NCBI GenBank assembly: GCA_944324105.1 | Contig: CALUVA010000006.1 | Span: 1 to 33,729, forward strand | DNA length: 33,729 nucleotides | Direction: 5' to 3' | DNA from: an uncultured Elusimicrobiales bacterium | GTDB lineage: Bacteria > Elusimicrobiota > Elusimicrobia > Elusimicrobiales > Elusimicrobiaceae | Part shown: positions 22,778-24,380 of the stretch, one piece after another | How positions within the stretch are numbered: the first letter of the stretch is position 1 | Layout: every line of letters starts with the position of its first letter | Notes under the pieces: generated by a model | Database searches by the model: none | Seen by the model: the letters and a program-made list of their open reading frames with translations, nothing else | What the model was told of the DNA's origin: nothing | Position numbers and translations under genes: made by a program

Positions 22778-23191
22778 ATGTGGGCCGTATTTGCGCTGTT
22801 GTCTGCGGTGTTTGCCGCACTGACGTCTATTTTTGCCAAAATAGGCATTGAAGGGATTAACTCCAACCTGGCTACTGCTATTCGTACGCTGGTGGTGCTT
22901 GTGTTGGCCTGGGGAATAGTATTTGCCACGGGTGTGCATCACCAGATAGGCGATGTGGGCCGCAAAAGCTGGCTGTTTTTGCTTTTATCCGGCTTGGCGA
23001 CGGGGGCTTCCTGGCTGTTTTTTTACAAAGCCTTGCAAATAGGAGACGCTTCCCGCGTGGTGCCGGTGGACAAACTTAGCGTGGCTATTACTATTTTGCT
23101 TTCTTTTTTCATTTTGCATGAAGCCGTTACTTTTAAGGTGGCGGCCGGCGGGCTGCTGATTACGGCCGGTGCGCTTTTGATGATTTTTTGA
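22778..23191 (+). CDS. half-size EamA-family membrane transporter
   Basis: A 137-residue integral membrane protein with about five hydrophobic helices, matching a single EamA (DMT superfamily) repeat; most EamA proteins have two. Single-repeat members of about 140 residues form a known group and presumably work as dimers. The conserved C-terminal pattern of the family (LDKLS- then AxxxxxxxxxE-like segments) is visible as VVPVDKLSVAITILLSF followed by LHEAVT. Substrate unknown. A strong AGGAGG Shine-Dalgarno sets the start. A weak hairpin and the sigma-factor gene follow. Confidence 0.85.
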   Translation: MWAVFALLSAVFAALTSIFAKIGIEGINSNLATAIRTLVVLVLAWGIVFATGVHHQIGDVGRKSWLFLLLSGLATGASWLFFYKALQIGDASRVVPVDKLSVAITILLSFFILHEAVTFKVAAGGLLITAGALLMIF

Positions 23192-23215
23192 GCCTGCCAA
23201 AAGGCTGCTTTTTTT
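23191..23215 (+). terminator. weak rho-independent terminator
   Basis: A short 5-bp stem (AGCCT 23191-23195 with AGGCT 23202-23206), a 6-nt loop and then seven T's (23209-23215). It overlaps the stop region of the EamA gene and the presumed promoter of the sigma-factor gene. Stem strength is modest. Confidence 0.4.
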
Positions 23216-23217
23216 GA

Positions 23218-23223
23218 TAAGAT
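23218..23223 (+). promoter_or_regulatory. candidate -10 element for the sigma-factor gene, leaderless layout
   Basis: TAAGAT lies 6 nt before the ATG at 23230, with no Shine-Dalgarno between. A weak CTGCCA (-35-like, 23194-23199) lies 18 bp upstream. The spacing would put transcription start at or next to the A of the ATG. Confidence 0.45.
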
Positions 23224-23229
23224 TTAACT

Positions 23230-24339
23230 ATGGAAAACCAATCTTTGGACAGCGTCAACGAATATTTTAAACACCTCGGGCAAATTACGCGCGATATGAA
23301 CCGCGAGGAAATGTCTGCGTTGTGGAAAAAAGTAAAACAAGGCGACAAAGCTGCCAAAAATAAAATGATGGAGATGAATTTGCGTTTGGTTATTCCGACG
23401 GCCAAACGCTTCCAGCGCCCCGGCATGGAGCTGATGGATTTGATAGAAGAGGGGAACCTTGGCCTTCTACAGGCTATAGATAAGTTTCAGCCGGAAAAAG
23501 GCTATCGTTTTTCCACATATGCTGTTTACTGGATTGAACAGTATATCCGTAAATATATTGAAGAGCAGTCCGGTTCCATCAAAATTCCGTCCCACGCGTG
23601 GGGCAATCTCAAAAGATGGTTCAAAGCCTGGAATAATTTAAAAGAAGCCAATGGACGCGATCCGTCCCTGAGCGAGATGGCGGCAGAACTGGATTTAAGT
23701 GCGCGCCAGGTAAAGGCTATTATGGACACGCTTAACGCCGCTACGGGTGTAGACTCGTTGGCCTCTTTGGTGGGAGAAGAAGAGGAACTGACGTTGGAGG
23801 ATATGCTCAGCGATGACGGAAAAGGCAATCCGCATGATGTGTTTTTGCATTCGGAAAATATGAGCGTACTGCGTGAGAGCCTGCAAAAATTAAATGACCG
23901 CGACCGGCAAATTTTGACCATGCGCTTCGGTTTGGCCGACAATGAACCCAAAACATTGGGAGAGGTGGCTGAACAAATGGGGCTATCGCGTGAGCGCGTG
24001 CGTCAAATAGAGGAGCGAGCCGTGAGTGAAATGCGCAAAGCTGCACGGAAGGCCGGTTTGCTGGAAAATATACCGACGGATTTCCGCACCCGTAAACTGC
24101 ATGCAGGGATGTCTGTTAAACAAAAAACAAATGTTTTAGGAGAAGTGATAGATCAAAGTCCGTTGGCGCGTTTACTGCGCCGCCGTGCTGCTGCGCAGGA
24201 AGCCGCCCGTCAAAAAGCGCAAAACGCCGGCGAGAAATCCGCACCGAAAAAACGGGCCAAAAAGGCAGTGCGGGTGAAGGCTCTTTCCACGAAAAAGAAA
24301 ACTACTTCCGCAAAAATAAAAAAGAGTAAAAAGAAATAA
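23230..24339 (+). CDS. sigma-70 family RNA polymerase sigma factor (RpoD/RpoS-like) with basic C-terminal tail
   Basis: Promoter-recognition subunit of RNA polymerase, 369 residues. Region 1.2 (about 5-38), region 2 (40-118), region 3 (120-195) and region 4 (212-275, with the helix-turn-helix GLSRERVRQIEERA) are all present; region 1.1 is absent. At region 2.4 the Gln of RpoD is kept (Gln104), but the following Thr is Arg107 and the first of the two tryptophans is Tyr100. This is unlike a textbook primary sigma and suggests a group 2 or divergent group 1 factor. Past region 4 runs an unusual tail of about 90 residues ending in a Lys/Ala-rich, histone-H1-like stretch. No Shine-Dalgarno; a -10-like TAAGAT is 6 nt upstream. 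Confidence 0.9.
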   Translation: MENQSLDSVNEYFKHLGQITRDMNREEMSALWKKVKQGDKAAKNKMMEMNLRLVIPTAKRFQRPGMELMDLIEEGNLGLLQAIDKFQPEKGYRFSTYAVYWIEQYIRKYIEEQSGSIKIPSHAWGNLKRWFKAWNNLKEANGRDPSLSEMAAELDLSARQVKAIMDTLNAATGVDSLASLVGEEEELTLEDMLSDDGKGNPHDVFLHSENMSVLRESLQKLNDRDRQILTMRFGLADNEPKTLGEVAEQMGLSRERVRQIEERAVSEMRKAARKAGLLENIPTDFRTRKLHAGMSVKQKTNVLGEVIDQSPLARLLRRRAAAQEAARQKAQNAGEKSAPKKRAKKAVRVKALSTKKKTTSAKIKKSKKK

Positions 24340-24352
24340 ATTTTAAAAAGGG

Positions 24353-24380
24353 AAACCCCCGCTATAAAGCGGGGGTTTTT
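24353..24380 (+). terminator. rho-independent terminator
   Basis: An 11-bp stem of the AAACCCCCGCT type (24353-24363 with 24368-24378), a 4-nt loop and a T-run, 13 nt past the sigma-factor stop. Confidence 0.9.

Follow-up and report, generated by a model that had tools for sequence, protein, structure and literature searches.

A sigma-70-family factor of Elusimicrobiales with altered -10-reading residues and a two-part C-terminal extension

The Elusimicrobiales sequence analysed here, which comes from an Elusimicrobiota bacterium of the gut and is referred to below as the window, is a stretch of 33,729 nucleotides that forms contig C6 of a 1.32 Mb assembly (80.8% complete). It codes for an alternative sigma factor of the sigma-70 family that resembles RpoS and other group 2 factors in layout but is not filed as RpoS. 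According to the explanation that we consider best overall, and to which we assign a probability of about 0.6, this factor is long established, is held alongside a canonical RpoD, reads -10 elements selectively, and carries behind its region 4 a docking motif followed by a nucleic-acid-binding tail.

Domain architecture

The open reading frame spans positions 23230-24339 of the forward strand (on which all features described below lie unless stated otherwise), starts with ATG, ends with TAA and codes for a protein of 369 amino acids (P0001). Its assignment as an alternative factor of the sigma-70 family draws on the reading frame itself, on Pfam and NCBIfam models and on orthologs. Regions 2 and 4, which define the family, both score above the curated Pfam cut-offs; domain calls in this frame were accepted at E values up to 0.001. 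Region 2, responsible for core binding and -10 recognition, covers residues 47-113 (23368-23568; Sigma70_r2, 61.9 bits, cut-off 24), region 3 residues 133-202 (23626-23835; Sigma70_r3, 46.6 bits) and region 4, responsible for -35 recognition, residues 218-270 (23881-24039; Sigma70_r4, 73.1 bits). Equivalents of R584, E585, R588 and Q589 are retained in region 4 in all 26 rows listed from the alignment. Because these residues are kept, the holoenzyme would be expected to recognize -35 elements in the manner of RpoD.

At the N-terminus, neither region 1.1 (PF03979) nor region 1.2 was found by Pfam at E up to 0.001; the lack of region 1.1 had already been stated in the initial annotation of this DNA. 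The NCBIfam rpoS_proteo match begins at residue 2, and residues 5-40 (23242-23349) align with the part of E. coli RpoS that lies upstream of region 2, so that the protein probably retains a diverged region 1.2. At the other end, region 4 is over at approximately residue 275 and 94 residues follow, in agreement with the approximately 90 extra residues claimed before. The description of the last 30 residues as nearly all Lys, Arg, Ala, Thr or Ser also holds, as 26 of them belong to these five kinds.

Class assignment

The initial annotation left it undecided whether this protein is the housekeeping sigma factor. A genome-wide search for rpoD answers in the negative: contig C16 of the same genome codes for a canonical RpoD of 571 residues (L001:490-2205) with regions 1.1, 1.2, 2, 3 and 4. 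The presence of regions 2-4 and the RpoD-like residues of region 4 are what could be said for a housekeeping role, and the second, canonical RpoD leads us to reject it. The tryptophan dyad W433/W434 is missing as well, although it is conserved in 100% of the housekeeping sigma factors tabulated in PMC4593229. Moreover, of the 149 genomes sampled from the phylum, 37 lack a match at E 1e-50 or better, and 28 of these belong to a single Endomicrobiaceae-type family. That the 369-residue protein could be the housekeeping factor of the lineage is thus barely conceivable. All three marks of group 1 factors, i.e. region 1.1, the tryptophan dyad and the status of sole RpoD-type gene, are absent. Contigs C13 and C10 each hold a further short sigma factor consisting of regions 2 and 4 only, and sigma-54 was not found in the genome, the assembly of which is 80.8% complete.

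Comparisons with curated families and solved structures gave a mixed picture. The best NCBIfam match is RpoS (TIGR02394 / PRK05657; 246.4 bits, cut-off 378.7), followed by the cyanobacterial RpoD/SigA subfamily (239.8 bits, cut-off 384.5) and RpoD_Cterm (215.2 bits, cut-off 354); none of the RpoS or RpoD models reaches its curated cut-off. In a Foldseek search the sigma-S chain 5ipl ranked best with a SigA model close behind. The nearest solved structures by sequence are chains of Gram-positive SigA (8x6f, 187.5 bits), with RpoS chains coming second (P. aeruginosa-type RpoS 7f0r, 177.3 bits). Since SigA chains outscore RpoS chains by sequence, likeness to RpoS is a matter of layout more than of descent. 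A tree of 47 rows, including 29 of the 108 distinct orthologs described below, contains a supported branch (96/93) that splits these 29 from 12 RpoDs; the tree does not separate the orthologs from E. coli RpoS or from a cyanobacterial group 2 factor.

Residues facing the -10 element

Alignment with E. coli RpoD places Y100-W101 (23527-23532) at the W433-W434 dyad and Q104-Y105-I106-R107 (23539-23550) at Q437-A438-I439-T440, precisely as the first reading of this DNA had it. These substitutions are no peculiarity of a single sequence. Among 108 distinct orthologs, the position of W433 is occupied by Tyr in 100 and His in 8, invariably followed by the W434 tryptophan; the position of R436 holds Glu in 101, Asp in 6 (an acidic residue in 107 altogether) and Lys in 1; Q437 is invariant; and the position of T440 holds Arg in 105 and Lys in 3. 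Being fixed across the whole ortholog group, the altered residues mark an alternative sigma factor, not an odd RpoD. Identical duplicates were dropped before this set was assembled, as were L026, L078 and L129, three orthologs truncated at contig ends, two remote matches from Chloroflexi (L119 and L120) and the loci of E. coli and of non-orthologous sigma factors. Forty loci were hand-picked from wider match lists, and the fold alignment comprised 56 rows.

Published work gives these positions a meaning. In the table of housekeeping sigma factors mentioned above (its rows sum to 1002) both tryptophans are conserved in 100%, and its authors argue that other residues at these positions weaken promoter opening and tune specificity (PMC4593229). 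The wedges are ranked WW > HW > QR in PMC10216364, in the account of which the HW wedge of sigma-32 is weaker than WW, and Q437 and T440 are described as facing position -12 (PMC2613000). In the light of these roles, the changes at W433, R436 and T440 suggest that promoter reading should differ from that of RpoD. With a Tyr or His wedge in place of Trp433, Glu or Asp in place of Arg436 and Arg or Lys in place of Thr440, the -10 element would be read and melted differently, and weaker intrinsic melting would make this factor pickier about its promoters than RpoD. A promoter preference of this kind, and any role in stress, are inferred. The signature as such provides a defined set of natural variants in which the drift of -10 recognition among alternative sigma factors can be studied.

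A conserved motif and helix behind region 4

The initial annotation described the residues behind region 4 as a tail with a basic end. The distal part is indeed basic; the proximal part consists of a conserved motif and a predicted helix, which were overlooked. Ortholog alignment, a profile search and a pattern search all delineate the motif, RTRKLHAGMSVKQKTNVLGE, at residues 286-305 (24085-24144). In 62 distinct complete genus-level orthologs (identity at least 59%), all of which possess the extension, residues 285-305 contain R-T-x-K-L-H and K-T-N-(I/V)-L-G, with majority fractions of 1.00 for R286, 0.95 for L290, 1.00 for H291, 0.95 for K299, 0.97 for T300, 0.97 for N301, 0.98 for L303 and 1.00 for G304. 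The helix is predicted at residues 311-336 (24160-24237) in an AlphaFold2 model of the protein (pTM 0.38), with mean pLDDT values of 80, 87 and 62 for residues 311-320, 321-330 and 331-340, respectively.

Mean pairwise identity declines from 0.81 in the sigma core to 0.67 in residues 285-303, 0.44 in residues 304-323 and 0.17 in the tail. Nine pairs of relatives, several of them with few changes, gave dN/dS values of 0.00 to 0.10 for motif plus helix, close to the 0.00 to 0.08 of the core; these ratios indicate that motif and helix are under purifying selection. Searched against 21 genomes, the motif profile matched the sigma gene in 20, the exception (G042) also being without an ortholog. Extra matches turned up in G044, in a 58-residue open frame near a contig start (E 1.7e-8), and in G010 at the level of chance (E 0.3).

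The lysine-rich tail

The tail proper, delineated from orthologs, AlphaFold2 and composition, comprises residues 324-369 (24199-24336). It overlaps the end of the helix and is predicted to be disordered from about residue 338, where pLDDT falls below 50. Neither Pfam nor NCBIfam revealed a known domain in it at E 0.001; two entries listed by Pfam at E 0.3 are at chance level. All 62 genus-level tails contain 33-55% Lys plus Arg and 0-7% Asp plus Glu. By composition and prediction, the tail matches histone H1-like tails: it is rich in Lys and in Ala, Ser and Thr, poor in acidic residues and predicted to be disordered. The neighbourhoods of the sigma gene provide a yardstick, as 410 non-overlapping open reading frames of at least 100 amino acids from the window and from the loci of 57 relatives were surveyed for charge. 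In 55 of them the 40 C-terminal residues carry a net charge of 0.30 per residue or more, and all 55 are the sigma gene, although the neighbourhoods are redundant and the scan is hence not a genome-wide survey. The sigma gene itself was not picked up in L056, L078 and L108, one of which is cut by a contig end.

Could the tail be a nearly neutral, A-rich extension of low complexity whose length is driven by slippage, with only the sigma core mattering? Several features fit. Its length after residue 323 varies between 26 and 98 residues and its identity is as low as 17%; AAA accounts for 984 of the 1278 lysine codons, so A-rich DNA contributes to the lysine content; and 16 of the 62 tails do not exceed all of 200 nucleotide shuffles in charge. 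The other 46 do, however; over all 62 tails the median z is 3.4 (lowest 1.6), and the median net charge is 0.40 per residue against 0.15 after shuffling. Acidic residues stay at 0-7% though GAA and GAG are as purine-rich as AAA and AAG, the tail is kept in every one of the 62 orthologs, and dN/dS of motif plus helix is at most 0.10. Within the tail dN/dS lies between 0.15 and 0.65 in the eight computable pairs of the nine, with small counts of changes. We regard neutrality as improbable: with charge retained at 17% identity, the tail keeps its charge and not its sequence.

Distribution and origin of the extension

Of the 149 genomes sampled from the phylum, 112 by hand count contain a match that reaches E 1e-50, the other 37 having weaker matches only, in the range of RpoD. 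The latter include 28 of the 51 members of the Endomicrobiaceae-type family f10, all five members of family f17 and four others. Within the genus, a search of 61 relatives detected an ortholog in 36 of 37 genomes, the exception being an assembly of 83% completeness. A search of a plasmid collection yielded only distant sigma factors, all below 60% identity in 530 records; some of them were used as outgroups. Several related records come from the gut of ruminants or the horse. In one genome the ortholog is split into two neighbouring pieces that lie in different frames (G050:C5:15335-16218), which may reflect a broken gene or a fault of the assembly. Three genomes of the sister genus g12 (G067, G103 and G063) have their matches to the sigma gene and to rpoD approximately 1-2 kb apart on opposite strands (L125-L127).

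A loose pattern of the motif is present in 84 of the 108 distinct orthologs, comprising all those sampled from f1, the family of the window, and from f2, f7 and f8. The 24 orthologs without it are made up of 11 of the Endomicrobia type and 13 that belong to other families in the class and phylum; in nine of the 13 the protein stops no more than 6 residues away from the position of residue 279, i.e. just after region 4. The initial annotation had named a second, canonical RpoD together with tail-less orthologs in close relatives as findings that would speak against it. The second RpoD exists; the close relatives keep the tail throughout (62 of 62), and tail-less proteins occur only at a distance (9 of 108). 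Rows of f1, f2, f7 and f8 form one group of the tree (support 95/91), a grouping consistent with a single gain of the extension. Members of Endomicrobia and some others of the phylum carry a different extension with DRR motifs (L109-L118, L159, L161 and L162), which in Endomicrobia is rich in Arg and Asp.

Gene neighbourhood and promoter

Upstream of the sigma gene lie a terminator-like hairpin and a gene of the EamA type, while an MFS gene diverges on the other strand; a tRNA-Arg gene and a gene of the nitroreductase family are situated downstream. The hairpin, followed by a run of T, occupies positions 23191-23206 between the EamA-type and sigma genes and was recorded in a consensus scan that returned 4 sites against a shuffle mean of 2.6. 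Just past the sigma gene, at 24353-24378, there is a hairpin of 11 bp, seven of them G-C pairs, with flanks of A and T; the scan places it on the reverse strand, and it may serve both. Among 57 loci of the genus, with those cut by contig ends included, 34 yielded the nitroreductase neighbour, 31 the MFS gene and 4 the EamA-type gene.

Directly in front of the sigma gene, the sequence pattern predicts an extended -10 element (23215-23229), in which TGA precedes TAAGAT (23218-23223), with 6 nt between the hexamer and the ATG. A TANNAT hexamer ends at this distance in 33 of the 57 genus loci, preceded by TG in 32 of the 33, and at 7 nt in 10 more. Control reading frames have a hexamer at the 6-nt place in 10 of 225 cases, their starts being taken as the first ATG and some therefore misplaced. 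A Shine-Dalgarno-like (SD-like) string within the last 20 nt before the sigma start is present in 3 of the 57 loci. A hexamer so near to the ATG, combined with the rarity of SD-like strings, points to a leaderless mRNA of the sigma gene. The arrangement is not confined to it. The pattern TTGNTANNAT followed by 6 nt and ATG has 34 sites in the genome (G000; the example in the window is at 23214-23232) against none for the reversed pattern, and a -10-like hexamer lies 5-8 nt before the start of folD in 28 and of smpB in 30 of the best 30 loci each (L240-L299). Predicted leaderless genes thus look common in the genus. In a paper returned by a literature search for leaderless transcripts and Elusimicrobia, the term occurs solely in an anti-SD table.

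We also considered whether the sigma factor regulates itself by way of a special -10 element. Of the 57 genus loci of the sigma gene, 44 have a -10-like hexamer 5-8 nt upstream of the start; TATAAT is not among these hexamers, and two of them have A at -9. The corresponding figures for A at -9 are 15 of 28 hexamers for folD and 9 of 30 for smpB. In the genome, TTTGMTATBAT has 12 matches (1 when reversed) and TTTGMTATAAT has 21 (also 1 when reversed). The idea was dropped, as the same motif precedes folD and smpB and looks like a general class of promoters; being a wider trait of the genus, the arrangement of the hexamer gives no evidence for self-regulation.

Possible function of the extension

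We propose that the two-part extension was gained in the order of the window and in some sister families of the class. Its proximal part, R-T-x-K-L-H...K-T-N-(I/V)-L-G with the helix, would dock on a protein surface, either of core RNA polymerase or of a regulator, and the distal disordered tail rich in Lys, Ala, Ser and Thr would make electrostatic, sequence-independent contacts to nucleic acid and so steady the holoenzyme on DNA. That the motif docks on a protein and that the tail binds nucleic acid are, as inferences, the most likely of the roles considered. The non-specific DNA binding that the initial annotation suggested for the tail is plausible in view of the lysine-repeat tails of other bacterial proteins; those of Streptomyces TopA are described in PMC7398561 as steadying the enzyme on DNA.

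A different division of labour would make the extension a regulatory handle, its motif and helix being bound by an anti-sigma factor, an adaptor or a protease and its Lys-rich part serving as a flexible, charged spacer or protease entry site instead of binding DNA. Strong purifying selection acts on motif and helix and not on the basic tail, and in ECF41 factors activity is regulated by a fused extension at the C-terminus, the distal part of which is inhibitory and the proximal part needed (PMC3426412). A plain spacer, on the other hand, would not need charge to be kept without sequence, and none of the three neighbours checked in the 57 genus loci is steady enough to be a candidate partner. 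We hold a handle to be a possible but rather unlikely role. More speculative still, and in our opinion doubtful, is that the extension represents a new built-in module of sigma factors, in which the motif sits on RNA polymerase and the histone-like tail couples promoter use by a stress-type sigma factor to the state of the chromosome, i.e. its compaction or lysine modification. Such a module would have been gained within the class Elusimicrobia and be paralleled by the Arg/Asp-rich extensions of Endomicrobia.

Should the tail of the docking and DNA-binding explanation, which we prefer, indeed bind DNA, this would be a factor of the sigma-70 family with a histone-like clamp of its own, and the clamp would be a simple means to raise promoter occupancy despite a weakened melting wedge. 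Orthologs with and without the extension coexist in one phylum and constitute a ready test set. Among the papers listed by our literature search, we found no description of such a sigma factor of Elusimicrobiota or of Lys-rich C-terminal tails on sigma factors.

Comparison with known systems

Among well-characterized factors, RpoS (sigma-38) shares with the Elusimicrobiales protein the lack of region 1.1, a start resembling region 1.2, regions 2-4 and the position as a second factor beside RpoD. The differences are YW in place of WW, Glu at R436 and Arg at T440, and the tail, which is absent from E. coli RpoS, a protein that stops shortly behind region 4. With RpoD/SigA of group 1 it has regions 2, 3 and 4 and the -35-reading residues R584, E585, R588 and Q589 in common; unlike them, it is devoid of region 1.1 and of the tryptophan dyad and carries a C-terminal extension. 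The extension of ECF41 factors, as described in PMC3426412, is likewise approximately 100 residues long, located beyond region 4 and equipped with conserved motifs. ECF factors lack region 3, however, whereas the Elusimicrobiales sigma factor has it (46.6 bits) and therefore falls outside that class. The lysine-repeat, histone H1-like tails reported in PMC7398561 for actinobacterial TopA, HupB and Ku are also C-terminal, Lys-rich and of low complexity, and they also belong to proteins that work on DNA; the tail presented here, known from its sequence, is attached to a sigma factor, occurs in another phylum and is located behind a conserved motif.
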